A model generated the notes under the pieces. The model was not told the origin of the DNA. It worked only from the letters and a program-made list of their open reading frames with translations, and made no database searches. A program made the position numbers and the translations under genes. This document shows, piece by piece, positions 43,344 to 62,112 of a DNA stretch of 64,000 nucleotides (position 1 is the first letter of the stretch; each line of letters begins with the position of its first letter). Source of the stretch: Planktotalea sp. (GTDB taxonomy: Bacteria > Pseudomonadota > Alphaproteobacteria > Rhodobacterales > Rhodobacteraceae); NCBI RefSeq assembly GCF_018607965.1, contig NZ_JABBAM010000061.1, positions 1-64,000 on the forward strand, given 5' to 3'.

Positions 43344-44216
43344 TCAAGTAAAATAGAAGTCTTCTGCTACGTTAGAAAATACGCCCTGACGCATCGCTTT
43401 TGGAATGATATCGAAATAGCTGCGTACAAGCGTTTCATAGCTTGAGTAGAGCATGTCGACAGGAAAATTTGATCCAAACATACAGCGTTTCGCCCCGAAC
43501 TGCTCGAGGCATAGTTCAATGATTGGGCGAATTGTATCGCTGGTCCATGAGTGATCGAACATACCTAGACCTGACAGCTTGCAAGTTACATTTGGCAAAT
43601 CCGACAAGGCACGTAAAGCGTGTGCATAAGCGCTTAGGCCGGATGGGCTACGATCATGGGGCGAGCCAGCATGGCACAGAGCAATTTTTGTTCCATTGGC
43701 TTTGGCTGCGATCTTGCTCATTTCGGGCATAAGGTCTGGGATCAGTTGCAAATCGAATGAAAGACCGCGCTGACCAACCAATTTTAATCCTTCCAGAAAT
43801 GCAGAAGACTGTAAGAGGTCGTTTGTGCCTGATTGTGCGTCCTCGCCGGGGGCGCGCCCGATGATTTGGCGCACGCCGCGAACGGTTGATAGTGTTTGAA
43901 AGCGATCCAATTGCGCGTCAAGATCGGGCGCGGTTAGATCGCAAAAAACAACTTGCGCGAGGGGCCAATCGGGGTTGTGATCAGCAACGCTTTGCACCCA
44001 CTTGGCTTCTTCCCACGCGTCTGCTGCGCCAACCTGAATGTGAACGGACCGCGTGAACCCGTGGGCACCTGCATCCGTGCTGAATTCGTTCAAAAGATAG
44101 TCGCGCTGGATTGGCGCAGGGTTGCCGAAAAACCGCGAGACATCCTTCGCGTTTAGCCAAGGGTAATCGACTGCCTTCAAGTCCCATAGGTGGTGATGTG
44201 CGTCAATGAAATTCAT
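43344..44216 (-). CDS. Amidohydrolase, L-fuconolactonase/LigI-like (COG3618)
   Basis: A 290-residue TIM-barrel hydrolase of the amidohydrolase superfamily. The metal motif is FIDAHHHLWD at the N-terminus, with CHAGSPHDR and FGSNFPVDMLYSSYE toward the C-terminus. Characterised relatives hydrolyse sugar lactones or 2-pyrone-4,6-dicarboxylate, so a lactone from ring cleavage is a reasonable substrate here. Start overlaps the stop of the NTF2-like gene by four bases, indicating an operon. Confidence 0.88.
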   Translation of the reverse strand: MNFIDAHHHLWDLKAVDYPWLNAKDVSRFFGNPAPIQRDYLLNEFSTDAGAHGFTRSVHIQVGAADAWEEAKWVQSVADHNPDWPLAQVVFCDLTAPDLDAQLDRFQTLSTVRGVRQIIGRAPGEDAQSGTNDLLQSSAFLEGLKLVGQRGLSFDLQLIPDLMPEMSKIAAKANGTKIALCHAGSPHDRSPSGLSAYAHALRALSDLPNVTCKLSGLGMFDHSWTSDTIRPIIELCLEQFGAKRCMFGSNFPVDMLYSSYETLVRSYFDIIPKAMRQGVFSNVAEDFYFT

Positions 44217-45214
44217 GGTTTTGTGTTTTCCAAATCGCCCAAAATGTCGATGCCCTGATGCATAAAGAAGTGAAGCATGTCAATGAAAACCCAGTTCTCT
44301 TTCAACTTTTCGCCTTCGCGGCGATAGACGTCAATCACACGAAATTCACTCAGCGTGTCGTTAGGTGGCAAGCCAAGATAGCCGCCCGTCGCCTTCGCTT
44401 TAAAATTGGGCCAGCCGAAAAAGGCCCCTAAATGACCTTCGGCAATGCGTGCGATGTGGCCTGTTCCAGATCGATCACTGAGACCTGCGCGAAAGGGACC
44501 TGAATGTTGTTTGGCGTAGCGCGCAATCGTATATGTCGCACCAATTCCCGCAGGGCCCCACCAGATCATATCGTCGTGCCAGCTTCGCGCGAGCTCTTCC
44601 TCCAAGGGCAGGCCGCTTTTCCATTGCCCTAGATCGCTGATCATCGCGTGTATGGTGTCCAAGGTTTTTTGCCCCTCAGATGGATCTGCGTCTGCATAGA
44701 GCAGGCCGTCATGGGTCGCAGGGCCCGGTTGCACCATATGCGCGGCGGCTTGTTCGGCGAAAGGCTGATAGCCGGCTTGCATCATAAAATGCGGGATGTC
44801 GAAATAGAACGCAGTTTCGGAAATTTTGCCATTTTCGACTTTGTGAAATTCTGCATACCGCAACATTATCATTTTGCCTGTGGGCTGAATGCCAAGCCAT
44901 GCTTCATCAAATAGCCCCATCAGATGGCCCATCGTACATACCCAAACCGAGGTGCCGTCATCAACAAAACTGGTGCCTGCGAAGAACACATCCATCCGGC
45001 GCTGCATGTGGGTTACAGATTTGCGAAAGGGTTGCCAGAAAAGGTGCGCGACCTCGCGTACATCGGTTTGTACGTGAAAGGGATGAAAGGCACGCCAAGT
45101 ATAGTGATCGGCTGTATGCTGTTTCAAGACGTCTTCGATTTGCGCCACATTCGCGTTGTCTAGTGCCGCGTAGTAGTCCAAAACCACGCTCTTTTCATTT
45201 TGAAAACCTGACAT
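44213..45214 (-). CDS. Tandem NTF2-fold/SnoaL-like protein
   Basis: A 333-residue protein with two SnoaL-like NTF2-fold halves. The first (about residues 10-165) has EKSVVLDYYAALDNANVAQI and MIMLRYAEFHKVENGKISE; the second (about 185-330) has ARSWHDDMIWWGPAGIGATY and EFRVIDVYRREGEKLKENWV. Such folds act as polyketide cyclases, isomerases or dehydratases. The start at 45214 is chosen (MSGFQNEKS), since the 23 upstream residues run through the promoter. It is in an operon with the lactonase-like gene. Confidence 0.8.
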   Translation of the reverse strand: MSGFQNEKSVVLDYYAALDNANVAQIEDVLKQHTADHYTWRAFHPFHVQTDVREVAHLFWQPFRKSVTHMQRRMDVFFAGTSFVDDGTSVWVCTMGHLMGLFDEAWLGIQPTGKMIMLRYAEFHKVENGKISETAFYFDIPHFMMQAGYQPFAEQAAAHMVQPGPATHDGLLYADADPSEGQKTLDTIHAMISDLGQWKSGLPLEEELARSWHDDMIWWGPAGIGATYTIARYAKQHSGPFRAGLSDRSGTGHIARIAEGHLGAFFGWPNFKAKATGGYLGLPPNDTLSEFRVIDVYRREGEKLKENWVFIDMLHFFMHQGIDILGDLENTKP

Positions 45215-45267
45215 CACAGTCCCTTTTCTTTGATCAATTGGCCGTGTTTGGTAAATGTCTATCGGTT

Positions 45268-45283
45268 TTGCAATCGTATGCAA
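45268..45283. promoter_or_regulatory. Candidate operator TTGCAATCGTATGCAA
   Basis: Imperfect palindrome (TTGCA-ATCGTA-TGCAA) in the 169-base divergent region between the NTF2-like gene and the sulfatase-like gene. On the minus strand it begins TTGCATA, like the elements at 49225 and 52296. Confidence 0.4.
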
Positions 45284-45383
45284 GCGGTTCGATTGCTTGA
45301 CTTTCGGTTCTAGATTGGACGTAACTTATCAGTGAAAAATCTGCAGCAGATTCCCTGAATTTACGAGAGATGTTTGACCGATT

Positions 45384-46988
45384 ATGCCGAAGAAAATTCT
45401 CTATATTATGTGTGATCAACTGCGGTTCGATTATCTGGGATGTACAGGTCACCCGACGATAAAGACGCCTCATATTGATGCCTTGGCCGCGCGCGGCATT
45501 CGCTTTGAGCGCACCTATGTGCAATCGCCAATTTGTGGTCCGAGCCGGATGAGTGCGTATACTGGCCGCTATGTTCGCAGCCATGGGGCAACATGGAATG
45601 GCACGCCGCTGCGCGTGGGCGAAATGACTTTGGGCGACCATTTGCGCCCCTTAGGCGTGCGCACGGTGCTCTGTGGCAAGACCCATATGGTGGCAGATTT
45701 TGACGGAATGGCACGCCTTGGAATTGACCCGCAGACAAGCGTTGGTGCTTTAATGGCCGAGGGCGGGTTTGAGGTGTGGGATCGCAACGACGGCGTTGTG
45801 CCCGACGGTGCTAAAAAGCAACCATCACACTACCAAGATCATCTGCGTGAGTTGGGTTATGATGGCCCAAATTCTTGGCATCACTGGGCTAATTCAGGCG
45901 AGGATGAAAAAGGCGAGGTGCTTTCTGGCTGGATGCTAAAGCACGCATCACAGCCCGCGCGCGTACCAGAGGAAGAGTCTGAAACCCCCTACACGACGAC
46001 CCGCGCGATTGAGTTTATGGAGCAGGCGAAAGACGACAGTTGGTGTTTGCATCTTAGTTACATCAAACCGCATTGGCCCTATATCGTGCCCGCGCCATAT
46101 CACAATATGTACTCCAAAGATGACGTATTGCCTGCGGTGCGAAGCGAGGCCGAGCGCGAAGATCCACATCCGCTGATCGCGGGCTACTACGCGCATCGCT
46201 ATTCCAAAGCCTTTAGCAACGATACCGTGCGCGATACCGTTATTCCGACCTACATGGGGTTGATCACGCAGATCGACGACCAGATCGGGCGGATCGTTCA
46301 ATATCTGGAAGACAGCGGGCAGGCGCAGGAAACCTTGATCGTCTTCACGTCTGATCATGGGGATTATCTGGGGGATCATTGGCTGGGCGAAAAAGAAATG
46401 TTTCATGACCCGTCGGTGCGCGTTCCACTGATTGTTATGGACCCGTCTGCACGTGCTGATAGGACGCGTGGAACTGTGAATGACGTCCTGACTGAGGCAA
46501 TTGATATCGTTCCCACATGCATTGATTTTATGGGCGGTGCGGTTGCGGACCATATCTTAGAGGGACGTTCATTGATGCCGTTTGTGAATGGCGAGGATGC
46601 CCCAAAGCGCAATGTTGTGATCTCGGAATATGACTATTCCCATCGAAAGCACCTACGCCATCTTAGCCCTGATGTGAAAAACTGCATGACCACAATGGTC
46701 TTTGATGGCCGTTGGAAAATGGTGCTGGTCGAGGGCCATCGTCCAATGCTGTACGATCAAATAACCGACCCCGAAGAGTTCCATGATCTGGGGGCTGATC
46801 CTGCGTACGCTGATGAAATTACACGGCTGTCCATGGAGATTTTTAAGTGGTCACGTGGTCAGCACAATCGTGTCACGTTAAGCGATGCGCAAGTCGAAGC
46901 AGACCGTCTTGATGAAGCTGAAGTTGGCGTTTTACTTGGATTCTGGGACGAAGCGGAACTTGCTGAATGGCAAGCCTCTATGGCTTAA
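45384..46988 (+). CDS. FGly-type sulfatase / phosphonate monoester hydrolase
   Basis: Alkaline-phosphatase-superfamily hydrolase, 534 residues. The N-terminal metal motif is IMCDQLRFDYLGC, and the cysteine-type sulfatase motif is ICGPSRMSAYTGRY at about residue 51, where Cys would be converted to formylglycine. FTSDHGDYLGDHWLGEKEMF supplies the C-terminal metal ligands. Overall spacing (SYIKPHWPYIVPAPYHNMY, MGLITQIDDQIGRIV, SEYDYSHR) resembles phosphonate monoester hydrolases as much as arylsulfatases. The substrate may be a sulfate, phosphodiester or phosphonate ester. No signal peptide is seen, so it is probably cytoplasmic. The 3' end overlaps the FGE gene by four bases. Confidence 0.9.
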   Translation: MPKKILYIMCDQLRFDYLGCTGHPTIKTPHIDALAARGIRFERTYVQSPICGPSRMSAYTGRYVRSHGATWNGTPLRVGEMTLGDHLRPLGVRTVLCGKTHMVADFDGMARLGIDPQTSVGALMAEGGFEVWDRNDGVVPDGAKKQPSHYQDHLRELGYDGPNSWHHWANSGEDEKGEVLSGWMLKHASQPARVPEEESETPYTTTRAIEFMEQAKDDSWCLHLSYIKPHWPYIVPAPYHNMYSKDDVLPAVRSEAEREDPHPLIAGYYAHRYSKAFSNDTVRDTVIPTYMGLITQIDDQIGRIVQYLEDSGQAQETLIVFTSDHGDYLGDHWLGEKEMFHDPSVRVPLIVMDPSARADRTRGTVNDVLTEAIDIVPTCIDFMGGAVADHILEGRSLMPFVNGEDAPKRNVVISEYDYSHRKHLRHLSPDVKNCMTTMVFDGRWKMVLVEGHRPMLYDQITDPEEFHDLGADPAYADEITRLSMEIFKWSRGQHNRVTLSDAQVEADRLDEAEVGVLLGFWDEAELAEWQASMA

Positions 46989-47923
46989 CGGCCGGGCCAA
47001 ACAACGCGAAATCCATGATGCGTGGTCGCGCTGTCTGGAGACGTTCCAGAACGCGCTGCGATGCGATAGCGATAGCAATACGACCGGTGACATAGAAATG
47101 ATCCGCCCTTTGACAGCTTATATCCCTTCATCTGAGAAACGCGTGCGCGCACGTTCTTTTTCAAGGATTTGACGCGGTAGGGATCAGCTGTCCATTCCCA
47201 GACATTGCCAACCACATTGAAAAGCCCATACCCATTTGGTTCAAAGGACTTTGCAGGTGCTGTCGTTTTATACCCATCTTTACCAGTGTTGGTTTCGGGG
47301 AAATGTCCTTGCCAAATATTGCAGGGCGTAAACGTCGTATCGTTTGGCGTTTCTTCCCCCCAAGGGAACGCGACATCGCCCAAACCGCCGCGTGCTGCGT
47401 GTTCCCACTCGGCCTCTGTCGCAAGCCGCCCTCCAACCCACGCGGCATATGCGCGTGCATCATTCCAAGAGATTTGCACAACAGGGTGATCAGCAAACCA
47501 TGCCTCGGCCTGCGTTTTTGGGCCGTTGATATCTTGCCAGTTTGCGCCTTCAACTTGGCGCCACCATTCGACGTCAACGACGCCTGCGGTCGGACCAACA
47601 TGGTCTGGGACTTCGGACCAAAACACGAAAGACCATCCAAAACGTTCAGCCTCGCTTACATACCCTGTCGCTTTCACAAAGGCTTCGAATTGCGCGTTGG
47701 TGACGGTGGTTTCGCCCATCAAGAAGGGTTTAAGTTTGACGTTGCGAAGAGGTGTTTCCCCATCATCTGGAACGCCTGCAGTGCGCGTTCCGACCAATGC
47801 ATTTCCGCCGGTAATGTGTAGGGCACCCTTTGAATTGAGGTCGCCGCTGATCACCGATCCGCTGGTGAGAGGAACGCGCTTTGCAGAGGGGCCACAACAG
47901 GGTTTCGCAACTTTAGTCGTCAT
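46985..47923 (-). CDS. Formylglycine-generating enzyme
   Basis: Converts the active-site Cys of sulfatases to formylglycine with O2 (312 residues). The diagnostic GGSFLCHRSYCYRYR, with both catalytic copper-binding Cys, is intact, and NVVGNVWEWTADPYR, GGRLATEAEWEHAARGG and HPVVQISWNDARAYAAW are family hallmarks. An N-terminal Cys-rich lead (AKPCCGPSAKR) is odd. It is transcribed 3 bases after the dioxygenase beta gene, in an operon with it, and converges with its likely client, the sulfatase. Confidence 0.95.
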   Translation of the reverse strand: MTTKVAKPCCGPSAKRVPLTSGSVISGDLNSKGALHITGGNALVGTRTAGVPDDGETPLRNVKLKPFLMGETTVTNAQFEAFVKATGYVSEAERFGWSFVFWSEVPDHVGPTAGVVDVEWWRQVEGANWQDINGPKTQAEAWFADHPVVQISWNDARAYAAWVGGRLATEAEWEHAARGGLGDVAFPWGEETPNDTTFTPCNIWQGHFPETNTGKDGYKTTAPAKSFEPNGYGLFNVVGNVWEWTADPYRVKSLKKNVRARVSQMKGYKLSKGGSFLCHRSYCYRYRIAARSGTSPDSATTHHGFRVVWPGR

Positions 47924-47926
47924 AGT

Positions 47927-48595
47927 CTACTCAAAGTACGTGGCATTGCGCCCGCCAACCACAATGTCAAAACGATAGGCTTCATCTAGATCATTGTTCG
48001 CGGGCTCAAACGGCTTGCCAATGTTACGTTCAAACGCATCCCCCATCAGGATCGCCATTGGGTCGGACTGGTTGTTCGGCTCATCTGGGAAATACATCTG
48101 TGTGATAAGACGAGATGCGCCACCGCTGACAGAAATGTGGATGTGTTTGGGGCGCCAACGGCCAATATCTGGACGCGCAAGATAGGCACCGGGACTAATC
48201 GCAAGAAAACGATAGTTGCCGTCTTCGTCTGTCAAAACACGGCCAAGACCAAGGTGGTTTTTATCCAACTGCAGGCCAGACATATCCTCAACATGGCGAT
48301 AACGCCCGTAGTGATTTGCGCTCCAAACCTCTAGCAAAGCGTGGCGCACGGGCGCGCCGCTTTGGGTTTTGACGCTGCCAGTAACCTCGATTGGGACGCC
48401 ATCTGCGCGGGGTCGGTCAGGGGCGACGCGGGTCATGTCCCATTCATGCGGATTGCTCGCATAGCGTGCTGGCACGACGGGAATAAAACTGGCGCGCGCC
48501 TCTTCTGGGATCAATCGAAGAAGCTGGCGCGGGGTGCGCTGATCGGATGTGTTGTCGGTCGGGCCAATCTCTAAAAGGCGTCCTTGGCGTGTCAT
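47927..48595 (-). CDS. Intradiol dioxygenase, PcaH-like catalytic subunit
   Basis: Fe(III) ring-cleavage dioxygenase of the protocatechuate 3,4-dioxygenase beta type (222 residues). All four iron ligands can be seen by pattern: Tyr in HYGRYRHV, Tyr in ISPGAYLAR, and two His in WRPKHIHISVSGG. RLITQMYFPDEP follows. The absence of pcaB, pcaC and pcaD around it argues that the substrate is not ordinary protocatechuate. Gaps of three bases to the alpha-type gene and to FGE indicate one operon. Confidence 0.92.
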   Translation of the reverse strand: MTRQGRLLEIGPTDNTSDQRTPRQLLRLIPEEARASFIPVVPARYASNPHEWDMTRVAPDRPRADGVPIEVTGSVKTQSGAPVRHALLEVWSANHYGRYRHVEDMSGLQLDKNHLGLGRVLTDEDGNYRFLAISPGAYLARPDIGRWRPKHIHISVSGGASRLITQMYFPDEPNNQSDPMAILMGDAFERNIGKPFEPANNDLDEAYRFDIVVGGRNATYFE

Positions 48596-48598
48596 TTT

Positions 48599-49198
48599 TC
48601 AGCTCTCCAGATCATCAAAGAAAGGTGTTTCGCCGTCGCCAGCCATGACGATGTTAAACAGGTATACCTCTTCGCCCTTCGCTGTGCGACCATCATGGCG
48701 TGCGATTAGCTTTGGGGCATCTTCACCGACCGTTTGTAGAATTGGATCATCTGCATTCGCATCATTCCCCTCAAAGAACATCTGCGTCACAACGCGGCTG
48801 ATCCCATCGGAAAACAAAGTGATCGTGATGTTTGGCGCGCGCTCTGCGACAGCGCCTGGAAGGATCGTGCGAAATTCATAGTAGCCCGTGTGCGAACGCA
48901 AACGCCCATACCCGTGAAACCAGTTTTCCACATCTGGATTGTCCTTGGTGGCGGGTGTGCGATACACACCTTTCGCATTGGCCTGCCAGAACTCCATGAT
49001 AGCACCATGCGCCAGATCACCGTGGCGATCCAGAATTTTGCCGCGCAGTATGATCGGCGTGCCAGTGGCTTGGCCGACCATGCCCACCTCAAAGCGCGTC
49101 AAGTCTTCCAAAGCGGGGTCACCGAATGCAATCGGGAAATAAGGGCCGCTGGTGTCTTCGTTTGTAGCAGGCAGTTGGTTTTGTCGGTTAGGGCTCAT
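48599..49198 (-). CDS. Intradiol dioxygenase, PcaG-like non-catalytic subunit
   Basis: Alpha-type partner (199 residues from ATG 49198; the longer track ORF runs into the promoter). It has the same fold as the beta subunit (ILRGKILDRHGDLAHGAIME, VVTQMFFEGNDANADDP) but lacks the His-x-His pair, where the sequence reads APNITITLFSDG. That is how alpha subunits normally look. It is first in the operon alpha-beta-FGE, divergent from the IclR regulator. Confidence 0.9.
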   Translation of the reverse strand: MSPNRQNQLPATNEDTSGPYFPIAFGDPALEDLTRFEVGMVGQATGTPIILRGKILDRHGDLAHGAIMEFWQANAKGVYRTPATKDNPDVENWFHGYGRLRSHTGYYEFRTILPGAVAERAPNITITLFSDGISRVVTQMFFEGNDANADDPILQTVGEDAPKLIARHDGRTAKGEEVYLFNIVMAGDGETPFFDDLES

Positions 49199-49224
49199 CG
49201 TATTCCCGCCATTGCGCGTGAATT

Positions 49225-49240
49225 GTTTTGCATGTAAAAC
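49225..49240. promoter_or_regulatory. Candidate IclR operator GTTTTGCATGTAAAAC
   Basis: A near-perfect 16-base palindrome (14 of 16 positions symmetrical) in the 74-base divergent region between the dioxygenase operon and the IclR gene. It shares TTGCATRTAAA with 52299-52309. Confidence 0.5.
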
Positions 49241-49272
49241 GCACATGAGTAGCAAAGCGAAATGAGCAAAGA

Positions 49273-50061
49273 ATGACCAAGGCGTCCAACCATGATGTGT
49301 ATTTTGTTCCCGGCTTGTCGCGTGGGCTGCGGGTTCTCGAAATTCTTGGAAGCGCTGAAACCCCAATGACGCTGAGCCAGATCGCCCGTGCGATGGAACT
49401 TAGCCGGTCTTCGGCGTTTCGTTTGGTCTATACTTTGCGCCAGATGGAGTTTCTGAAAGAGGGCGAGCAGGCTAATACCTATACTTTGGGCTCGCGCGTT
49501 TTGAACCTTGGGTTTGCCTACTTGAACCAACAACAGATCACGACAATTGCACGTCCTCACTTGGCGGGGTTGCGCGATGCGACGGGTGTTTCGACCCACC
49601 TGAGCGTGCTGGAAGGGCAGGATGTTTTGTACCTTGGTAGCCACCAAGCACGCAGCGGGTTTGTATCCAACATGTCCACGGGAACACGTACGCAGGCGTA
49701 CGCGTCTGCGATTGGTTGGTGTCTTCTGGGGGCGTTGAGCCATGATGAATTGGAAGCGTTTTGTGATGATGTTACCTTTGACAGTTTCACCCAGCACACG
49801 CCAAGTTCTTTTGATCAGCTGTTGGACCGTGTTGATCAGGTCCGTGAACAGGGTTTTATCGTCTCGAAAGGGTTTCGTGATGTTGGCGGATCCAGCGTTG
49901 CGGTTCCTGTGCGCGATCAGCGTGGTGTAATCGTGGCTTGCGTCAATCTTTCGGGGCCTGATAGCGGGTTTGACTTTGACCGTCTTGATAGCTTTTACAT
50001 ACCTGAAACCCAAAGCGCCGCTTTGCGCATTTCGCGCGAACTTGGGTATGCGGGTCGCTAA
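49273..50061 (+). CDS. IclR-family transcriptional regulator
   Basis: 262 residues. The N-terminal winged helix contains MTLSQIARAMELSRSSAFRL, and the C-terminal effector-binding domain has LSVLEGQDVLYLGSHQAR and NLSGPDSGFDFDRLDS. Regulators of this family often control aromatic catabolic genes, pca genes among them, by binding a pathway compound. It is the only regulator in the 43-62 kb cluster and is divergent from the dioxygenase operon, so it probably governs that operon and itself. Confidence 0.93.
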   Translation: MTKASNHDVYFVPGLSRGLRVLEILGSAETPMTLSQIARAMELSRSSAFRLVYTLRQMEFLKEGEQANTYTLGSRVLNLGFAYLNQQQITTIARPHLAGLRDATGVSTHLSVLEGQDVLYLGSHQARSGFVSNMSTGTRTQAYASAIGWCLLGALSHDELEAFCDDVTFDSFTQHTPSSFDQLLDRVDQVREQGFIVSKGFRDVGGSSVAVPVRDQRGVIVACVNLSGPDSGFDFDRLDSFYIPETQSAALRISRELGYAGR

Positions 50062-50073
50062 CTGCACGCTCAT

Positions 50074-50952
50074 TCACTCTTTCAGTTTCAAAATCTCGCG
50101 GGCCTCATCGGGGCTGGCAAGGTGTCCACCAAGATCGTCAATCATGCGCGCTGCTTTTGCAACCAGTTCTGCGTTGGACACGCAGTGCTGTCCTTTGCGA
50201 ATGTAGGCCGTGTCCTCCATCCCGACGCGCACATGTCCGCCAAGTAACCACGCTTGCGACAGCATTGGAAACGATGCGCGGCCAATGCCAAACGCAGCCC
50301 ATTCTGTTCCCTTGGGCAATTGGTTAACAAGGTAGGCCATCGTCGCAGGGGTTGCGACTGCGCCAAAGCGCACGCCAAGTACCATTTGCACCATAAGCGG
50401 CGTTTTGATGATGCTGCGCGCGATGAAATCTTTGACCATGTGCAAATCGCCACTGTCGAAAATTTCGATCTCTGGTTGAACGCCCGCCGCATAGATTTTT
50501 TGCGCCATAATTTCGAGGTTACGCGGACTGTTGATCACACTCGCTTGGCCCGACCACATCGTGTTGAAGTCAAGCGTGCAAATGTCTGGGCGCAGGGCTT
50601 GGACATGGGCGACGCGCTTTTCTGGTGCGCAAAGGGTTGAACCTGTTGCGGCTATCTTTGGATCGTCATCAGATGGAACGAAGCGTCCACCTTCGCCAGT
50701 TGTAAGATTGATCAGAACATCCGTGTTCTTGGCACGGATCAACCCTACAAGTTCTTCGTACAGATCAAGACGCATTGATCCCTTAGATGTTATTGGATCA
50801 CGCACATGCAGATGCACAATCGCGGCACCTGCCGCGGCTGCATCCAGCGCGTGTTGTGCGATTTGGACGGGGGTTACAGGTAGGTTCGGACTGATTTCAG
50901 GCGTCATGAGATTTCCAGTAATCGCGGCGGTTAAGATCGTTTTGCGCGCCAT
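50074..50952 (-). CDS. Beta-keto acid cleavage enzyme (BKACE, 3-keto-5-aminohexanoate cleavage type)
   Basis: Zinc-dependent enzyme that splits a beta-keto acid with acetyl-CoA to give acetoacetate and a new acyl-CoA (292 residues). The zinc ligands are in IVHLHVRDP, and the family segments EIEIFDSGDLHM and VRVGMEDTAYIRKGQ are clear. Members differ in side-chain specificity, which cannot be read here. One base separates it from the aminotransferase, so the two form an operon. Confidence 0.92.
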   Translation of the reverse strand: MARKTILTAAITGNLMTPEISPNLPVTPVQIAQHALDAAAAGAAIVHLHVRDPITSKGSMRLDLYEELVGLIRAKNTDVLINLTTGEGGRFVPSDDDPKIAATGSTLCAPEKRVAHVQALRPDICTLDFNTMWSGQASVINSPRNLEIMAQKIYAAGVQPEIEIFDSGDLHMVKDFIARSIIKTPLMVQMVLGVRFGAVATPATMAYLVNQLPKGTEWAAFGIGRASFPMLSQAWLLGGHVRVGMEDTAYIRKGQHCVSNAELVAKAARMIDDLGGHLASPDEAREILKLKE

Positions 50953-50953
50953 C

Positions 50954-52285: not shown

Positions 52286-52295
52286 GAGTTTTTCC

Positions 52296-52311
52296 GTATT
52301 GCATATAAACT
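52296..52311. promoter_or_regulatory. Candidate operator GTATTGCATATAAACT
   Basis: Lies in the 74-base divergent region between the aminotransferase and CoA transferase genes. It matches the motif at 49225 in 12 of 16 positions, including TTGCATRTAAA. Confidence 0.45.
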
Positions 52312-52359
52312 TATGTTTTGTATACTAGACACATTTAGGAAATACAAGGCTTGATCTAA

Positions 52360-54398: not shown

Positions 54399-55303
54399 AA
54401 CCCATGCAAATGCAAGATCTTCACGGCTACGTCCCCGCAATCGCGACACCCTTTAATGACAAGGGTGAAATCATGGAGGATGCGTTCGTTGAACTGTTCG
54501 AATTCCTACTTGCACGCGGCGCGACATGCGTGTGCATCGCGGGGGACAATGGTGAAAGCTGGGCACTGTCCGCGCCTGAGCGTGGGCGTTTGGTGAGATT
54601 GGCGAAAGACACCTCGAAAGGCCGCGTTCCAATCATGATGGGGATTTCAGCGCCCACGATTGATGCTTCTGTTGCCTACATTCGTGCTGCAGAAGAAAAC
54701 GGAGCGGATGCACTTTTGTCGATGCCGCAGACCTATGTCTTGAAGGCTTCTGAGGCCGAATTGATGGGGCGGTTCGATAAGATTTCAGTAGCCACGAATA
54801 AGCCGTTGGTGCTGTACAATTCCCCCCGTCGTATGGGTTTTTCGCTGACAATTGACCAGACTGAAAAACTTCTGGATCATCACAACATCATTGGCATCAA
54901 AGAAAGCCAGCGTGACTTTTTCTATCACACGCATTTGCTGCATCGCCTGTCCCATCGCTTGGCCGTGATGACGGGGCCGTGTCATTATATTATGCCCGCA
55001 TTCGGCCTTGGCGCGAAGGGCTTCATTGCGACTGGACCTGAATTCACCGACCTCTGGCCGTCAGAAATGGCAAAGGTTGGGGCGGGCATTCCTGATGAAA
55101 CGTACCGTCACGCGCACTACCAGTTGACGGTGCTCTATGAGCTTTTGATGAGCCTTGGAACATGGCCTGCCGCGTTCAAAGCCGCGCTCAATCTGATTGG
55201 CTTGCCTGCGGGCGTTCCACGCGATCCTGTTTATGCGTTGGCCTCGGATAATATCGACAAGATCAAAAAGACGTTTGATCAATTGGGCATCTCATATTCA
55301 TGA
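54395..55303 (+). CDS. Dihydrodipicolinate synthase family lyase
   Basis: A TIM-barrel class I lyase of 299-302 residues. The Schiff-base Lys is in IIGIKESQRD at about residue 168, and the Tyr in LVLYNSPRR at about residue 140. The usual GTTGE loop reads AGDNGES. The TTG at 54395 would overlap the SMP-30 stop as the other genes here do, while ATG at 54404 is the conventional choice. Family members include aldolases and the 1-pyrroline-4-hydroxy-2-carboxylate deaminase of hydroxyproline catabolism, which also sits beside a three-subunit FAD dehydrogenase. Confidence 0.88.
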   Translation: MKPMQMQDLHGYVPAIATPFNDKGEIMEDAFVELFEFLLARGATCVCIAGDNGESWALSAPERGRLVRLAKDTSKGRVPIMMGISAPTIDASVAYIRAAEENGADALLSMPQTYVLKASEAELMGRFDKISVATNKPLVLYNSPRRMGFSLTIDQTEKLLDHHNIIGIKESQRDFFYHTHLLHRLSHRLAVMTGPCHYIMPAFGLGAKGFIATGPEFTDLWPSEMAKVGAGIPDETYRHAHYQLTVLYELLMSLGTWPAAFKAALNLIGLPAGVPRDPVYALASDNIDKIKKTFDQLGISYS

Positions 55304-55587
55304 TCCGCTTGGTCCCAAACCACGCGCTAAAAATCGTGCGCAGTGCTCCGGTGGTGTTTACGTTTGATGGTCAAAGCGTCGAAGGGCACGCGGGCGAAAA
55401 CCTTGCAGGTGCACTACTGCGCGCGGGTCGTTTGCATTTGCGCAATGCACCTGCAAACGGGGGGCCGCGCGGTGCATTTTGCTGCATGGGCCTGTGTCAG
55501 GAATGCACGGTTCGCATAGATGGACAGGTTGTTGAGGCGTGCCGAACTGAGGTCACGCAAGGCCTAGCTGTTGAACGTGCGGGATGA
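55300..55587 (+). CDS. Small (2Fe-2S) subunit of a flavoprotein dehydrogenase
   Basis: A 95-residue plant-type ferredoxin-like protein. The Cys cluster is in GAFCCMGLCQECTV, with a further Cys in VEACRTEV. Such subunits (HcnA/OoxA type) partner with the two flavoproteins that follow in hydrogen-cyanide synthase, opine oxidase and D-hydroxyproline dehydrogenase complexes. It overlaps its neighbours by four bases on both sides. Confidence 0.9.
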   Translation: MIRLVPNHALKIVRSAPVVFTFDGQSVEGHAGENLAGALLRAGRLHLRNAPANGGPRGAFCCMGLCQECTVRIDGQVVEACRTEVTQGLAVERAG

Positions 55588-56996
55588 GCGATAGGTTCGA
55601 CATCATTGTCGTGGGTGGCGGTCCTTCTGGCGCACGCGCGGCTTTAGCCGCGTCCGCGCAAGGTTTGAATGTCGCGTTGATTGATGAGCAATCCGCAATT
55701 GGTGGGCAGGTGTGGCGCGCAAAGAATGCGTCGATCCTATCTGCGCCCAAGACGCATGAAACGCGCGCTGGTGATGCCCTTCGCCGCGACGTACTTGCAA
55801 GCGACATTACACATATTGAAGGCGCGCGGGTTTGGCAGATTGAGACCGGCTGGACTTTGCATGTTTTGCGCAAAGATGTGTCGTCCGAATTGACTTGTAA
55901 ATCCTTGGTCCTAGCGACGGGTGCGCGTGAATATGTGCAGCCCGTACCGGGTTGGACGACATCGGGCGTGCTGGGGTTGGCGGGGGCGACGGCGCTGTTC
56001 AAGCAATCCCTTACACCGCCTGGAAAACGCACGATCGTCTCAGGCACAGGACCGCTTGTGTTTTTCGTTGCCAGTGAGATTCGCCGTCTTGGAGGTGAGG
56101 TTGCTGCAGTCGTGACGCCCAACTCTCGCCGCGATTGGATGCGCGCTCTCCCAAGCATGTTGGGTCGACCTGCATTGCTCATGCGAGGTGCAATTTGGGT
56201 CGCGGACCTGATGCTTGCGGGCGTGCCAATCTATTGGCAACGCGTGGTTACGGATGTGTCTGGCGATGACCAAGTGCGTGGAGTTTCCATTGCCAAGCTT
56301 GATCAAAACTGGGCGCGCACGAGTGAAGACATAATGCTCGCTGCGGATAGCCTGTGTCTTGGGAACGGGCTTATCCCAAACATTGAAGCGGCGCACATGT
56401 TGGGTGTTCCTATCCGCCACGACCACGCACTTGGGGGCTGGATTCCTGAGACGACTGAGGACGGAGGTACATCCATTGATCGCTTGTATCTTTGTGGAGA
56501 TGGGACCGGCATTCGCGGTGCTGAGGCGGCGGCACATCAAGGCACCCTGACGGGGTTATGCGCTGCGGCTGATTTGGGACATGGGACGGTTAATCTACAA
56601 AAACAGGCCAAAGCAAAGTGGCTGAAGTCAGCGCGCTTTGGCATGACAATGACGGCCCTTAGCATCCCAAGGGTTGGACAGGCGCAGCTTACAACGCCTG
56701 AAACGATTGTGTGTCGTTGCGAAAACGTAACGCGCGCCACCATTGAAGCCGAACTTAACGCAGGCGCGCAAAGCAGCAATGCGATCAAGTCAGGCTCGCG
56801 CGCGGGCATGGGGCCATGTGGCGGCAAATTCTGCGCGACAGCGATTGCACAGTTGATAGCGCAGCAATCGGGCGCTCCTGTAGCAAACATTCCACCCGCG
56901 ACACCACGTCCGCCACTACGTCCTGTTCCCTTATCGATCGCGGCGGGGTCGTTTGACTACGACGCACTCCCGATCCCAAAGCCAGCCCCGTTATGA
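55584..56996 (+). CDS. FAD-dependent oxidoreductase with C-terminal [2Fe-2S] BFD-like domain
   Basis: A 470-residue protein of the HcnB/OoxA-type group. The N-terminal FAD motif is IIVVGGGPSGARAALAAS, a second nucleotide-binding region is around VSGTGPLVFFVAS, and CRCENVTRATIEAEL...GPCGGKFC carries four Cys for a [2Fe-2S] cluster near the C-terminus. With the preceding ferredoxin and the following DAO-type protein it forms the likely electron-transfer chain of a heterotrimeric amine or amino acid dehydrogenase. Confidence 0.92.
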   Translation: MSDRFDIIVVGGGPSGARAALAASAQGLNVALIDEQSAIGGQVWRAKNASILSAPKTHETRAGDALRRDVLASDITHIEGARVWQIETGWTLHVLRKDVSSELTCKSLVLATGAREYVQPVPGWTTSGVLGLAGATALFKQSLTPPGKRTIVSGTGPLVFFVASEIRRLGGEVAAVVTPNSRRDWMRALPSMLGRPALLMRGAIWVADLMLAGVPIYWQRVVTDVSGDDQVRGVSIAKLDQNWARTSEDIMLAADSLCLGNGLIPNIEAAHMLGVPIRHDHALGGWIPETTEDGGTSIDRLYLCGDGTGIRGAEAAAHQGTLTGLCAAADLGHGTVNLQKQAKAKWLKSARFGMTMTALSIPRVGQAQLTTPETIVCRCENVTRATIEAELNAGAQSSNAIKSGSRAGMGPCGGKFCATAIAQLIAQQSGAPVANIPPATPRPPLRPVPLSIAAGSFDYDALPIPKPAPL

Positions 56997-58084
56997 TTTA
57001 CGACACGGCAATAATCGGTGGTGGTATCATGGGGTGCGGATCGGCCCTTCGATTGGCACAAGGCGGTCAGCGCGTGATCGTTCTGGATCAAGGGGATTTG
57101 GGGCAGGGTGCCTCTGGGGTGAACGCTGGTACACTTAGCTTGCAGATCAAACGTGTGAAATTGATGCCTTACGCGTTGAAGGGCCACGCGTGTTGGGAGG
57201 CGATGGGGAAGGCGGTTGGATTTGCAAAAACAGGCGGCTACACGCTGGCCTTCAATGCGCGCGAAGCCGCGTTGTTACAAGAGCGCCAAACGTTAAAAGC
57301 CCAAGCGGGCGCGCCGATTGAATTTGTGTCCAATAATCAGCTGCGCAATGGCGAACCGAACCTCACGCAGCAGGTTGTTTCTGCCAGCTATTGTGCCGAG
57401 GATGGCTATGCAAATGCGTCGCTGACCGGGCAGTACTATCTTGGAAAATTACGCGACGCTGGGATCGAATACCGCGAGCGTTGTGAGGTCACTGCGATTG
57501 AGCGCGACAAGAATTTTAAGCTGACGACCCCGCAAGGCACGATCAACGCGACACGCATTTTGCTGGCTGCAGGGGCGTGGTTGAAACCTCTGGCCGCGCT
57601 GATGGACGTGCATCTTCCTGTGCAAGCGCGCGTGAATACCGTGACTGTGACAGAGCGCATGCCACCTTTGATGTCGACTGTGATCGGCCATGCCACAGGG
57701 CTTTTGACGATGAAGCAAAAGGCCAATGGCACGTTGCTGATTGGCGGTGGTTGGCAGGGGCTTGGCACGCCGCAAGAGGGGCGTGGACGGGTCAGCGTAG
57801 ACACAGTTCGCCCGAACCTTGCGCTTGCGCAATACGCGGTGCCTGCTTTGGGGACTGCACGGATTTTGCGCAGTTGGACGGGGTTTGAAGCGAATGTGCC
57901 AGATTTCTATCCCCTTGCGGGCGTGTTGCCTGGCGTTGAGGGCGCATACGTCCTTGGATGTGTGCGCGGCGGCTACACGATTGGACCCTATATCAGCCAG
58001 CTGATGGGTGACTACATTTTGGGGCGAGAGCCTGAATTGCCTTTGTTTGATCCGGGGCGTGATTTTAAAGAGGGAACGATATGA
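56993..58084 (+). CDS. FAD-dependent oxidoreductase, DAO family (substrate-oxidising subunit)
   Basis: A 363-residue D-amino acid oxidase-fold protein. The FAD-binding start is TAIIGGGIMGCGSALRL, and LLAAGAWLKPLAALM and VRGGYTIGPYISQLMGD complete the flavin-binding pattern. In HcnC and hydroxyproline dehydrogenase complexes the homologous subunit oxidises the CH-NH bond. It overlaps both neighbours by four bases. Confidence 0.92.
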   Translation: MIYDTAIIGGGIMGCGSALRLAQGGQRVIVLDQGDLGQGASGVNAGTLSLQIKRVKLMPYALKGHACWEAMGKAVGFAKTGGYTLAFNAREAALLQERQTLKAQAGAPIEFVSNNQLRNGEPNLTQQVVSASYCAEDGYANASLTGQYYLGKLRDAGIEYRERCEVTAIERDKNFKLTTPQGTINATRILLAAGAWLKPLAALMDVHLPVQARVNTVTVTERMPPLMSTVIGHATGLLTMKQKANGTLLIGGGWQGLGTPQEGRGRVSVDTVRPNLALAQYAVPALGTARILRSWTGFEANVPDFYPLAGVLPGVEGAYVLGCVRGGYTIGPYISQLMGDYILGREPELPLFDPGRDFKEGTI

Positions 58085-58857
58085 CACTTGATCCAGCCCG
58101 CCTAGACGGCAAACTCGCAATCATCACAGGTGGCGGAAGCGGCATTGGCGAAGCAACCGCGCATGTATTCGCACAAGCTGGTGCGACGGTTGTTGTCACC
58201 GGTCGCCGTTTGGAGCCTTTACAGGCCGTTGCGAAAGCTGTCGGTGGACACGCAATTGCGTGCGATGTGTCAGATCAATCTGATGTGCGCGCAATGTTTG
58301 CGCAAGCCTTGACAATTTTAGGCCGCGTTGATGTGTTGCTCAACAACGCTGGCGGACCCGGGCCAATCGCCCCTGTGGCCGAGGTCGACATGGACGAGTG
58401 GATCACGTGCATGAACATCAACCTTGTTGGGGCGATGTATTGCTTGCAAGAAGCGGCCAAAATCATGACGGAACAAGGCGCGGGATCTATCATCAACATG
58501 TCGTCGTTGATGGGTATCCAAGGTTATCCAATGCGGTCGGCCTATGTGGCGTCAAAATTCGCGTTGAACGGGATCACACAAACCATGGCACGTGAACTTG
58601 GGCCAGTGGGCGTGCGCGTGAATGCGTTGATGCCGGGGGCTGTGTCTGGCGCGAATATGGACCGCATCCTTGCGCGCCGTGCTGAAGCCGAGGGGCGTCC
58701 GGCGCAAGACATAGAGCGTGAAAACTACACAGACGTGGCCGCTTTGAAACGATGGGTGCACCCCGACGAAGTCGGTCGCGCGGCGCTATATTATGCGTCT
58801 GATCTGAGTTCAGCGATCACAGGCGATAAGATGAAAGTGGATTGCGGTCGGTTCTAG
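58081..58857 (+). CDS. SDR family oxidoreductase
   Basis: A 258-residue Rossmann-fold dehydrogenase. Cofactor motif TGGGSGIGEA, structural motif NNAGG, catalytic Ser in NMSSLMG and YVASK for Tyr/Lys are all present. C-terminal GDKMKVDCGRF. It is the last gene of the seven-gene operon and converges with the flavin monooxygenase gene, 7 bases away. The substrate is unknown. Confidence 0.93.
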   Translation: MTLDPARLDGKLAIITGGGSGIGEATAHVFAQAGATVVVTGRRLEPLQAVAKAVGGHAIACDVSDQSDVRAMFAQALTILGRVDVLLNNAGGPGPIAPVAEVDMDEWITCMNINLVGAMYCLQEAAKIMTEQGAGSIINMSSLMGIQGYPMRSAYVASKFALNGITQTMARELGPVGVRVNALMPGAVSGANMDRILARRAEAEGRPAQDIERENYTDVAALKRWVHPDEVGRAALYYASDLSSAITGDKMKVDCGRF

Positions 58858-58864
58858 GACGCGT

Positions 58865-60145
58865 TCAAAAATTGATGCGCGCGCCCTTGGCAATCGTTGG
58901 GTCTGCGCCATTAAGCGCGTCCATCGCAAAACCTGCGGCAGCTTTGTATTTGCCCATAAAGTCGGCGCGCTCGCTAGGGCTAATGATTTGATTGATGTCT
59001 TCGAACGCACCAGCGCAGCGGTCATTAACCATTGTTAGCAACCCAAATGGACCGTCACCGCGATTTCGAAGGACCACTTCGGAAATCGGGCCGCAGAACT
59101 TGGCGTCGAACGTACAGAGGGCTTTGGGCGTTACGCCATGCTCTAGGAAGGCTGCGCCAATCTGGCGGGCGTCGACAATCGCTTGGCTCGCGCCATTTGA
59201 ACCAGTCGGATACATTGGATGGGCCGCGTCACCGATCAAAACCACAGGCCCATCTACCCATGTGTCGATCGGATCGCGGTCGATCATCGGGTTTTCATAC
59301 GCGACATCCGCGCCGCTGATAAGTGCTGGCACATCAAGCCAATCATATGTCCAATCCGCAAAGTGATGCGCGAAACTACTGATGGGGACCTGCCCAAACC
59401 AGCCAACCTTTTCACACGCATCGGGGTCATCAACAGTGATTTCAGCGATCCAGTTGATTTCAGCCAAACCATCGCTGTCCACGTGTGAGATCGGGTAAAT
59501 CACCATGCGTTGACGATGGGTGTCAAGACCGATGAAGGAGGAGTTCGTGCGCGCGGGTTTCGCGCGCGTGGTGCCGCGCCACATGATCGAGCCACCCCAG
59601 TGAATTGGGGGTTGATCGGGATGCATCTGCGCACGCACTTTGGAGTGAATCCCGTCTGCTCCGATCAAAAGCGTGCCCTTAATTTCGCTTGTGGTGCCGT
59701 CAGCATGGGACAGCTTTGCCGTGACGCCGACCTCATTTGTCTCGTAGCCAATTACGCGCGTACCAAGTCGGATCGCTTCGGTCCCTGCGCGGTTTTGGAG
59801 TTCGCGCGCCAAAAGCATTTGGAACTCACCGCGATGCATTGCATATTGCGGCCACTTGTAACCCGCAAATGTCCCACGCGGCTCAGCGTAAATCTCTTGG
59901 CCCCGTTGGCCAACAAGCGCCCATTCCTGCGCAGGAACGCCGACTTTGCCAAGTTGATCTTCCGTGATGCCAAGATCAAGCAATTCGCGCACGGCGTTGG
60001 GTTGGACGTTGATGCCAACCCCAAGGGGTTTCAGTTCAGACACGGCTTCTAGGACTGTAAAGGGCACACCAATTTGATGTAGCGTCAGACCCAAAGCCAG
60101 ACCGCCAATGCCGCCGCCTGCGATCAGTACATGTGGCGCGTTCAT
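58865..60145 (-). CDS. FAD-dependent aromatic-ring hydroxylase-type monooxygenase
   Basis: A 426-residue flavoprotein of the group A monooxygenases (salicylate/PHBH-like). ADP-binding motif LIAGGGIGGLALGLT at the N-terminus, DG motif LLIGADGIHSKVR at about residue 155, and GD motif VVLIGDAAHPMYPTGSNG near residue 300. The start at 60145 is chosen; the longer track ORF overlaps the P450 gene in an odd way. Overlap of 4 bases with the P450 gene indicates one operon. Its product could feed the intradiol dioxygenase. Confidence 0.92.
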   Translation of the reverse strand: MNAPHVLIAGGGIGGLALGLTLHQIGVPFTVLEAVSELKPLGVGINVQPNAVRELLDLGITEDQLGKVGVPAQEWALVGQRGQEIYAEPRGTFAGYKWPQYAMHRGEFQMLLARELQNRAGTEAIRLGTRVIGYETNEVGVTAKLSHADGTTSEIKGTLLIGADGIHSKVRAQMHPDQPPIHWGGSIMWRGTTRAKPARTNSSFIGLDTHRQRMVIYPISHVDSDGLAEINWIAEITVDDPDACEKVGWFGQVPISSFAHHFADWTYDWLDVPALISGADVAYENPMIDRDPIDTWVDGPVVLIGDAAHPMYPTGSNGASQAIVDARQIGAAFLEHGVTPKALCTFDAKFCGPISEVVLRNRGDGPFGLLTMVNDRCAGAFEDINQIISPSERADFMGKYKAAAGFAMDALNGADPTIAKGARINF

Positions 60146-61320
60146 TTCAACAGGACCGGCATTTGAACGGGGCCACGAAAACCAAAGCCGTTCCATTTTA
60201 CGTCGTTTAATTTGGGAATGGTCATGTTGGGGAACCGATCGAAGAGCATGGGTAACATCACCTGTCCTACAGTGCGACGCGCGACATGTATGCCTTGGCA
60301 AAAATGCGGACCATTGCCAAAGGATTGATGGGACTTCACTTCGCGGTACACGTCGAAGTTTTCACCATTCTCATAGAGATCTTCGTCGCGATTGGTGCCG
60401 GCTTGTATGGTCATCACCGACTCGCCCTTCGGGATAAGACAGCCCCGAATTTCAGTGTCTTCAACGACGCGACGTCCCGAGACGGAAATAGGAGCTACCC
60501 AGCGGATACCTTCCTCGAACGCTTTGTCCCAATCGGCGTTTTTCTTCACTTGGCTCAATTGGTCTGGGTTGGTCAAAAGCCCGCATAAGATCGTTAGCAA
60601 TGCATCGCGCGGTTCATTGATGCCGCCCCCAATCGCAATTTTGATATTGGCGTAGATTTGGCTCATCTCGATTGGCTCATCAGCGTTCAGCATGATTGCG
60701 AAGACCGAGTTGTTTGGCGTCGCGCGATGGTGATCTTGCAGCCCGTCAAAGAGAGCATTCATTTCCGCATTGGCTTTGTCGGATGCTGCAAACAGATCAT
60801 CGCGCCAGCCAAAATTACCAGCATCATTGATGAGGGTCTGGCTCCAGCGCTGCATCTGTTTGTCTGACGCGGTTTCTAGGCCCAAAAGACTGGCCAAACC
60901 ACGCGCTGCATAGGGACCTGCAAGCATCGGAAACAGGTCAACTACTTCACCGCGCGGAAGACGCGCGAAGTAGTCTTGGGCGATCTTTGTATAGGCGGGA
61001 ACCCATTCGTTTTTGATTACTTTTGGCGCAAAAGCAGGGGCCATTGCCATGCGTTCGCGCATGTGTGCCGCACCGTCTTTGCGCATCAAGGTGTGGGCTT
61101 GGAACGCGCGTTCCATCGGCGTGTTCGTATCATCTGAGCTGAAAATCTCGGGATGATCTTTCACGTATTTGGTGTCAGCGGCCTTGGTGAGAAAGGTGCG
61201 CCCCGTTGCCTTGATCCGCATCACTGGTGTCTGGGCGCGCAAGCAACGATAGATCGGAAAGGGATCCCTGTGCAGATCCTCAAGCGTGATCGTGTCATTC
61301 AACGGAGCCAAAGCTGCCAT
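60142..61320 (-). CDS. Cytochrome P450
   Basis: A 392-residue soluble bacterial-type P450. Haem-binding motif FGNGPHFCQGIHVAR, with the Cys ligand near residue 350, I-helix AIGGGINEPRDALLTI (Asn-Glu in place of the usual acid-Thr pair), and EEGIRWVAPISVSGRR for the K-helix ExxR, where the Arg is found. The I-helix lacks the normal catalytic Thr at its expected place, which could alter oxygen activation. No ferredoxin or reductase is next to it. Confidence 0.9.
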   Translation of the reverse strand: MAALAPLNDTITLEDLHRDPFPIYRCLRAQTPVMRIKATGRTFLTKAADTKYVKDHPEIFSSDDTNTPMERAFQAHTLMRKDGAAHMRERMAMAPAFAPKVIKNEWVPAYTKIAQDYFARLPRGEVVDLFPMLAGPYAARGLASLLGLETASDKQMQRWSQTLINDAGNFGWRDDLFAASDKANAEMNALFDGLQDHHRATPNNSVFAIMLNADEPIEMSQIYANIKIAIGGGINEPRDALLTILCGLLTNPDQLSQVKKNADWDKAFEEGIRWVAPISVSGRRVVEDTEIRGCLIPKGESVMTIQAGTNRDEDLYENGENFDVYREVKSHQSFGNGPHFCQGIHVARRTVGQVMLPMLFDRFPNMTIPKLNDVKWNGFGFRGPVQMPVLLK

Positions 61321-61338
61321 GTGTCGCTCCCAATCAGT

Positions 61339-62112
61339 TTAACGCGGTGCCATGCGGATCGCGCCATCAAGGCGGATCACTTCGCCATTTAGCATGGGAT
61401 TATCCACAATATGGCAGACCAGATTGGCGAATTCAGGCGGCACACCAAGGCGAGACGGGAAAGGAACCTGCGCGCCAAGAGAGTGCTGCACGTCCTCTGG
61501 CAAGCTTTCCAAAAGCGGCGTCAGAAAAAGGCCGGGTGCAATGGAACACACGCGAATGCCTTTGTCTGCAAGATCGCGCGCCATAGGCAGCGTCATCCCA
61601 ACAATCCCACCCTTTGAGGCTGAATAAGCCACCTGACCTATTTGCCCGTCATAGGCTGCAACGGACGCGGTATTGATGATGATGCCACGCGCACCGTCTG
61701 GCGCTAGTGGGTCCTGAGCAACCATCAAAGCAGCCGCCTGACTGGCGCAATTGAACGAGCCGATCAGGTTGATGCGGATGGTCTTATCGAACAGATCAAA
61801 CTCATGCGCTTGTCCGCGGCTGACGGTTTTACCCGCAAGGCCAATGCCTGCGCAATTCACCATGACGCGCGGTGCGCCGAGTTTTGCGACAACCCTGTCC
61901 ATGCCCGCTTTTACGCTACCGGGAGCGGACACGTCGACTTTGCAGAAGATGCCCCCAAGCGTGGTTGCGTGCGCGGTGCCTTTCTCTTCGTTCAAATCAA
62001 ACAAAGCAACTTTCAGGCCCTGTTTTGCCAATGCAGTTGCGGTTGCCGCGCCAAGCCCCGAAGCACCACCGGTCACGATGGCGGTCTGGCCCGCCCAAAT
62101 TTGTATACTCAT
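61339..62112 (-). CDS. SDR family oxidoreductase, HSD10-like
   Basis: A 257-residue short-chain dehydrogenase. Cofactor motif VTGGASGLGAAT, Asp in ALFDLNEEKG favouring NAD, Ser in IINTASVAAYDG, YSASKGG for Tyr/Lys. The GLAGKTVSR and LRIDGAIRM style segments resemble 3-hydroxyacyl-CoA dehydrogenase type 2. It is the first gene of the SDR-P450-monooxygenase operon. ATG at 62112 is preferred to the TTG at 62115. Confidence 0.92.
   Translation of the reverse strand: MSIQIWAGQTAIVTGGASGLGAATATALAKQGLKVALFDLNEEKGTAHATTLGGIFCKVDVSAPGSVKAGMDRVVAKLGAPRVMVNCAGIGLAGKTVSRGQAHEFDLFDKTIRINLIGSFNCASQAAALMVAQDPLAPDGARGIIINTASVAAYDGQIGQVAYSASKGGIVGMTLPMARDLADKGIRVCSIAPGLFLTPLLESLPEDVQHSLGAQVPFPSRLGVPPEFANLVCHIVDNPMLNGEVIRLDGAIRMAPR

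Follow-up and report, generated by a model that had tools for sequence, protein, structure and literature searches.

Which compound is broken down by a gene cluster that places an intradiol dioxygenase pair beside a sulfatase, an aminotransferase, a trimeric flavodehydrogenase and a single IclR-type regulator? This question is raised by positions 43344-62112 of a 64,000-nucleotide stretch of Planktotalea sp. DNA, called the window in the following (contig C138 in a 3.0 Mb genome of 178 contigs, 91% complete; C, G and L numbers are our handles for contigs, genomes and loci). A sequence-only reading had listed 18 enzyme genes with one regulator and had proposed one pathway for an aromatic, nitrogen-containing, sulfate- or phosphonate-esterified compound, possibly a marine metabolite. 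All 19 genes (18 enzyme-type and one IclR) were located, with Pfam and NCBIfam families that agree with its assignments, and the same typing gave no transporter gene among them. However, the 18 enzymes do not form one unit, because an amidohydrolase/NTF2 pair and a flavin monooxygenase have unrelated partners elsewhere. The unit is restricted to 12 genes at 47927-58857, and our tentative proposal is that these represent an IclR-controlled regulon through which a catecholic amino acid, most likely DOPA or one of its close relatives, would be degraded oxidatively.

A conserved twelve-gene core and its operator

The locus search used the dioxygenase subunit DOb as query against 84,980 species genomes and gave approximately 30 close relatives at 60-83% identity, separated by a clear gap from all others (47% or less). 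In about 27 loci the order and orientation of 12 genes are kept, i.e. DOb-DOa-(IclR)-BKACE-AmT and then, divergently, CoAT-SMP30-DapA-Fer2-HcnB-DAO-SDR1. In the window, this core and its two operator sites are as follows:

47927..48595, minus strand: DOb, PcaH-like catalytic subunit of an intradiol dioxygenase (PF00775; TIGR02422 163.5 bits, cut-off 296.4)
48599..49198, minus strand: DOa, PcaG-like subunit of an intradiol dioxygenase (aligns to PcaG; TIGR02423 113.2 bits, cut-off 126.25)
49225..49240, no strand: operator 1, GTTTTACATGCAAAAC, between IclR and DOa (25 of 25 loci; score 23.5)
49273..50061, plus strand: IclR-type regulator, nearest to the PcaR/PcaU/PobR subfamily (TIGR02431, 168.6 bits)
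50074..50952, minus strand: DUF849 enzyme resembling beta-keto acid cleavage enzymes (BKACE), BsfD-type (PF05853, 303.9 bits)
50954..52285, minus strand: class III aminotransferase AmT, conserved (PRK07483 645 bits, cut-off 485)
52315..52330, no strand: operator 2, GTCTAGTATACAAAAC, between AmT and CoAT (26 of 26 loci; score 23.4; also in genome G374)
52360..53526, plus strand: family III CoA transferase CoAT, conserved (PF02515)
53523..54398, plus strand: SMP-30/gluconolactonase-like hydrolase, conserved (PF08450)
54395..55303, plus strand: DapA-superfamily lyase/aldolase (PF00701; motifs GDNGE, YNSPRR and GIKES)
55300..55587, plus strand: 2Fe-2S subunit of a heterotrimeric amine/imino-acid dehydrogenase (PF13510)
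55584..56996, plus strand: HcnB-like FAD/NAD-type subunit with a BFD-like [2Fe-2S] domain (PF07992, PF04324, PF17806)
56993..58084, plus strand: glycine-oxidase-like DAO subunit (PF01266; glycine and sarcosine oxidases as closest solved structures)
58081..58857, plus strand: dehydrogenase SDR1 (PF13561; 65-90% identity in 24 genomes or records)

The most likely start of DOa is position 49198 and not 49366, where its open reading frame begins.

The identity of the core proteins ranges roughly from 45 to 90% over these loci, which belong to two proteobacterial classes, and we judge this degree of conservation to be far beyond chance. The pairwise distances of the core proteins co-vary (r 0.69-0.96), DOa is co-inherited with DOb (r=0.94) and SDR1 is present in 24 of the 26 core genomes or records. 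On the side of the Rhodobacterales the hosts are Litoreibacter, Poseidonocella, Pacificibacter, Sulfitobacter, Epibacterium, Pelagimonas, Ruegeria, Roseovarius, Roseinatronobacter and Yoonia; further hosts are Kordiimonadales, marine gammaproteobacteria, Rhizobium and Microvirga, the last two of which make the restriction to a marine metabolite too narrow. The core is rare, with a dioxygenase ortholog in 3 of 397 genomes sampled from the family, and two annotated copies are located on plasmids (Sulfitobacter SK012; Rhizobium leguminosarum p3). This patchy distribution together with the plasmid copies suggests that the core spread by horizontal transfer. In Rhizobium, a gene of the gamma-carbonic-anhydrase family directly follows DOb, and a homolog is found likewise in Microvirga (L080, L013, L021).

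The IclR gene is divergent from DOa in nearly all core loci. A 16-base palindrome, GTTTWATATRCAAAAC, is common to both divergent intergenic regions, IclR/DOa (25 of 25 readable loci) and AmT/CoAT (26 of 26), including those of the gammaproteobacteria. In the window only the two sites listed above score high, the next best reaching 12.5 and 10.3, and on both strands six matches with up to three mismatches were counted, compared to 1.15 expected. The position weight matrix was built from the same sites, and the weight of this evidence therefore rests on the controls and the specificity and not on the scores. In the core loci together with their flanks (881 kb), 57 sites score at least 15, all but two of them at the IclR/DOa or AmT/CoAT promoters, and 566 kb of control loci contain no site at this score. 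Because the palindrome is found at both divergent promoters in all testable loci and at none in the controls, the 12 genes almost certainly form one regulon. Judged from its gene position, the IclR protein is the predicted operator-binding factor, and its inducer would probably be a pathway compound.

The two exceptional sites precede Usp/TTT operons in Pelagimonas and Ruegeria EL01, and the one in Pelagimonas also faces a Usp-sulfatase operon; hence, TTT-type uptake and a sulfatase appear to be tied to the regulon in these hosts. In the window, no operator precedes the sulfatase, NTF2 or SDR2/P450/FMO genes. The possibility that this operator also controls an uptake gene in another part of the genome was considered and rejected, since the sole extra near-match (C175) falls inside a coding sequence. 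The cluster had been described as transporter-free, which is correct for the operator-marked genes of this genome, but not for its relatives, where TTT, amino-acid ABC or permease genes lie beside the core.

The dioxygenase pair and other core enzymes

Aligned to PcaH (2pcd), DOb has retained all four iron ligands (two Tyr, two His), which are invariant in 23 sequences. The pair thus has the intradiol PF00775 fold with its two-Tyr/two-His site, whereas both subunits score below the NCBIfam cut-offs for protocatechuate 3,4-dioxygenase. Furthermore, the substrate-side YPW segment by the iron site of PcaH reads YLA in 23 of 23 DOb orthologs. The pocket is therefore altered, which makes protocatechuate an unlikely substrate. 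The protocatechuate/beta-ketoadipate pathway was rejected because of these scores, the pocket residue and the missing pca partners: pcaB, pcaC and pcaD are found neither in the cluster nor among the typed recurrent neighbours of the core, as the sequence-only reading had correctly stated for the cluster. Instead, DOa and DOb very probably catalyze the intradiol cleavage of another catechol.

The label BKACE holds for the enzyme at 50074-50952 as a family name (PF05853) only. Its nearest solved structure is BsfD (9zsc; 321 bits, ungapped over 290 residues), and the catalytic Tyr (Tyr173 in PdKce) is replaced by Phe in an EIEIFDSGDLH-like motif in the window and in every ortholog that includes the region. 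BsfD has Phe at the position of the Tyr found in all canonical BKACEs; it acts without cleavage and forms 2,4-dioxopentylphosphonate with acetyl-CoA, as reported in the flavophos paper (PMC12871164). Since Phe occurs in all orthologs, the name BKACE should not be read as a function, and by analogy the enzyme may perform C-acetylation chemistry instead of cleavage. In the genome of L017 (G163:C35:24011-24426), remnants of the BKACE gene with broken frames were found between AmT and IclR.

The DapA-type lyase has the Schiff-base Lys and the Tyr of the GIKES and YNSP motifs, invariant in 23 of 23 sequences, and the carboxylate loop GDNGE. Its score against TIGR00674 (4-hydroxy-tetrahydrodipicolinate synthase) is 149.4 bits, which is below the cut-off of 206.15. 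A second family III CoA transferase gene is present at 39106-40188 of the window, outside the cluster.

Flanking genes and substrate clues

The remaining genes of the cluster differ in their linkage to the core:

43344..45217, minus strand: amidohydrolase AmH and tandem NTF2 protein, not core (different conserved module; no operator)
45384..46988, plus strand: sulfatase, frequent partner (PF00884; C-x-P-x-R site CGPSR at residue 51)
46985..47923, minus strand: formylglycine-generating enzyme (FGE), frequent partner (PF03781, GGSFLCHRSYCYRYR; same putative operon as DOa/DOb)
58865..60151, minus strand: flavin monooxygenase FMO, PRK07538, window-specific neighbour (unrelated neighbours elsewhere)
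60142..61320, minus strand: VirH2-like P450, predicted aromatic O-demethylase, occasional partner (similarity to a pRiA4b P450)
61339..62115, minus strand: SDR2, weakly linked (its only homolog after DOb is in Poseidonocella pacifica, 52%)

From their contexts elsewhere, AmH/NTF2, FMO and SDR2 were rejected or found to be weak as core genes. The AmH/NTF2 pair recurs in Ruegeria conchae (L102; 64% and 59% identity), where it adjoins a HisD/ester-cyclase/sugar-ABC cluster, and in two more records the same cluster has NTF2 relatives beside it. This is a conserved roseobacter plasmid cluster (L101, L102, L105) with multiple tandem SnoaL/NTF2 proteins, HisD, SDR, cupin and a sugar-type ABC transporter, and it is homologous to the NTF2 gene of the window. 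The expectation of a conserved neighbourhood thus held for the core, with FGE and sulfatase as frequent and the P450 as occasional partners, but not for AmH/NTF2 and FMO.

FGE is probably co-transcribed with DOb, because its gene begins 3 bases past the end of DOb; the same arrangement, with FGE after DOb, is seen in L024, L079 and gammaproteobacteria. Its canonical motif with the active-site cysteines, together with CGPSR, marks a type I sulfatase/FGE pair, and sulfatase homologs are found near the core in L009-L012, L024, L026 and L079. The CGPSR site and the genuine FGE therefore point to a sulfatase and not to a phosphonate hydrolase; accordingly, the phosphonate ester considered by the sequence-only reading was dropped as unlikely. 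In single-cell Rhodobacteraceae genomes (L010, L011; 13.7-20 kb of L010), an ABC transporter, a LacI regulator and an MGH1-like glycoside hydrolase lie beside the core-linked sulfatase.

The P450 of the window shares 64% identity with the second of the two P450s that lie next to VirK on pRiA4b, which we take to be the position of virH2. Its nearest solved structures include 6g71 (252 bits), presumably CYP1232A24, and the guaiacol O-demethylase GcoA (approximately 144 bits). These similarities place it in the VirH2/GcoA group, with O-demethylation as the predicted activity. Related P450s lie beside the core in L009, L024, L092, L097 and L098. In an Alloyangia pacifica plasmid (L118), a P450 65.6% identical to that of the window shares an operon with a 2Fe-2S protein and an FAD oxidoreductase of its own; these probably form a redox chain, for which the window has no counterpart.

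Further clues come from the flanks of the core in relatives. In gammaproteobacteria (3 of 3 loci) SDR1 adjoins a P450 (52-53% identical to that of the window), an aromatic (Trp/Tyr-type) amino-acid permease and a sulfatase, the permease lying between the other two, and in Kordiimonadales (3 of 3 loci) a sulfatase, an amino-acid permease and PhyH follow SDR1. Sulfitobacter SK012 has a PRK09257 aromatic amino-acid aminotransferase (523 bits, cut-off 377) directly after SDR1, FGE and sulfatases after DOb, and also TTT; E. ulvae carries a homolog of this aminotransferase at the same place, and R. leguminosarum an amino-acid ABC transporter by the core. Sulfatases with the CxPxR site occur in three core-bearing lineages. 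The common denominator that we infer is a catechol that would arrive free, sulfated or methylated and behave as an aromatic amino acid, and DOPA would be the best match to it. An amino-acid-like substrate is rather probable, while DOPA itself is possible but somewhat unlikely. The idea of a single pathway that degrades an aromatic and nitrogen-containing compound, often in sulfated form, is thereby strengthened, by the shared operator as well as by the sulfatase, amino-acid carrier and aromatic aminotransferase partners.

A possible pathway, its rivals and known systems

The assignment to a catecholic amino acid is based on the aromatic-amino-acid carriers and aminotransferase, the CxPxR sulfatases, the VirH2-related P450s, the glycine-oxidase-like DAO subunit and the Schiff-base DapA-type lyase. 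In some hosts, the FGE-activated sulfatase would take off an O-sulfate and the VirH2-like P450 an O-methyl group, so that conjugates would converge on the free catechol. We infer the order and identity of the subsequent steps as follows. DOa/DOb would cut the ring between both hydroxyls and yield a muconate still bearing the amino-acid side chain, from which a lactone or a proline-like ring may form by cyclisation. The 2Fe-2S/HcnB/DAO dehydrogenase would then convert the amino (or cyclic imino) acid into a 2-oxo acid, SMP-30 would open a lactone, and the DapA-type lyase would release a 2-oxo acid such as pyruvate. What remains would finally be converted into CoA thioesters and C4 acids, with the aminotransferase, SDR1, the CoA transferase and the BsfD/BKACE-like enzyme as catalysts. 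In its boldest form, which we consider fairly unlikely in all its parts, this would be an undescribed intradiol DOPA-type pathway that takes O-sulfate and O-methyl conjugates and has spread horizontally among marine and plant-associated bacteria, with a ring-cleaved product that recyclises proline-like, an opine-oxidase-type trimer and a BsfD-like C-acylating enzyme.

Animals, algae and legumes commonly contain catechol amino acids along with sulfate and methyl conjugates of these. We came across no account of a bacterial pathway in which the ring of a catechol amino acid is opened by intradiol cleavage. If the proposal is true, it would connect sulfatase-rich marine heterotrophs and rhizobia through a common class of nutrients. 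The question of the substrate is directly testable, since the operator is defined, the catalytic sites are intact and hosts are in culture (Sulfitobacter SK012, Rhizobium leguminosarum GLR17, Epibacterium ulvae, Pacificibacter maritimus).

Several observations weigh against the DOPA proposal. The literature search gave no report of intradiol DOPA breakdown, and the core includes neither a ring hydroxylase nor a cycloisomerase. The BKACE-like gene is absent or broken in seven core loci. Moreover, the permease-bearing gammaproteobacterial loci are close kin and count as one lineage, and TTT carriers in Roseobacters are not specific for amino acids. Our reservation is chiefly due to G374, which has the nine-gene part (BKACE, AmT, CoAT-SDR1) with an IclR gene (48%), the operator and TRAP-type transport genes. 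An ortholog of the dioxygenase pair is missing from it, and the most PcaH-like gene that it has is only 47% identical. The nine genes may thus act on a substrate whose breakdown does not involve this ring cleavage. In G374 (C15; L106, L113), IclR, a TRAP-type permease with DctM domain and an NMT1_3 binding protein lie beside BKACE-AmT, and the operator is kept before AmT/CoAT. Searches on the breakdown of DOPA sulfate and tyrosine sulfate gave nothing useful, and the homarine pathway was discarded because the literature search showed no matching gene set.

The alternative that survives best starts from G374: the nine genes (AmT-BKACE, CoAT-SDR1) would break down a non-aromatic, hydroxyproline-like amino or imino acid with a ring, taken up by the cell, and the dioxygenase would be an optional entry route leading from a catechol to the same intermediate. 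HcnABC/DapA partnerships at lower identity in other clusters (L107, L108) are in line with it. However, all other core loci that include the region have the dioxygenase pair sharing the operator, although these loci were found by a dioxygenase search, and the flanks with P450, aromatic aminotransferase and aromatic permease indicate aromatics. We rate this alternative as rather unlikely.

Another nitrogen-bearing catechol, i.e. a catecholamine of the dopamine type or a hydroxycinnamate amide in the form of a sulfate or methyl ether, would need the same deprotection by sulfatase and VirH2-like P450. VirH2 O-demethylates ferulate according to the title of Kalogeraki 1999 as listed in PMC12373482 (see also PMC4086400), and class III aminotransferases often use amines. 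Nevertheless, the carriers and aminotransferase of the relatives are of the amino-acid type, and the core is without an amidase, another kind of amine oxidase or a CoA ligase; such a substrate is unlikely.

From a mycosporine-like amino acid, the oxidase would remove the glycine residue, the ring would be aromatised, the P450 would remove the methoxy group and the dioxygenase would cleave. The glycine-oxidase-like DAO subunit, the O-demethylase-type P450 and the algal-associated hosts would fit, but the core is also present in Rhizobium and Microvirga, most cores have no P450 beside them, no clear dehydratase for the aromatisation is encoded in the core and the literature search gave nothing, which makes this substrate improbable. 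Unrelated operons that merely lie side by side, as is true for AmH/NTF2 and FMO and consistent with the missing operator before Sulf, NTF2 and P450/SDR2, are very improbable for the core given its kept order in about 27 loci, its co-inheritance and the common operator at both divergent promoters.

Among known systems, PcaGH of the beta-ketoadipate pathway shares the heterodimeric intradiol fold, the iron ligands and an IclR regulator of the PcaR/PcaU/PobR group, and some roseobacter pcaHG loci (L071, L074-L077) have a DUF849/BKACE-type gene nearby, as in the core. A literature search for the combination of intradiol dioxygenase and BKACE gave no paper. The core differs from PcaGH by scores below both cut-offs, the YLA pocket, the lack of pcaB/C/D and nine unrelated partner genes. 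BsfD of the flavophos cluster (PMC12871164, 9zsc) resembles the BKACE-like enzyme in the ungapped alignment and the Phe, but it is biosynthetic with a phosphonate substrate, while the core enzyme stands in a catabolic context. Unlike VirH2 of Ti/Ri plasmids, the P450 of the window adjoins a ring-cleavage regulon and not a vir region. The lumichrome (riboflavin) cluster of Nocardioides (PMC12746152) likewise combines P450 oxidation, a catechol dioxygenase, hydrolysis and retro-aldol cleavage to pyruvate and acetoacetate; its substrate and gene set are different, and the available part of that account describes no trimeric oxidase or IclR operator. Finally, the D-hydroxyproline and opine oxidases (HcnABC, OoxAB) have the same 2Fe-2S, FAD/NAD and DAO subunits beside a DapA-family lyase. 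The core trimer is only approximately 36-55% identical to other such trimers found in this comparison, and its partners, in contrast to those of the D-hydroxyproline and opine systems, are a dioxygenase, SMP-30, a CoA transferase and a class III aminotransferase.

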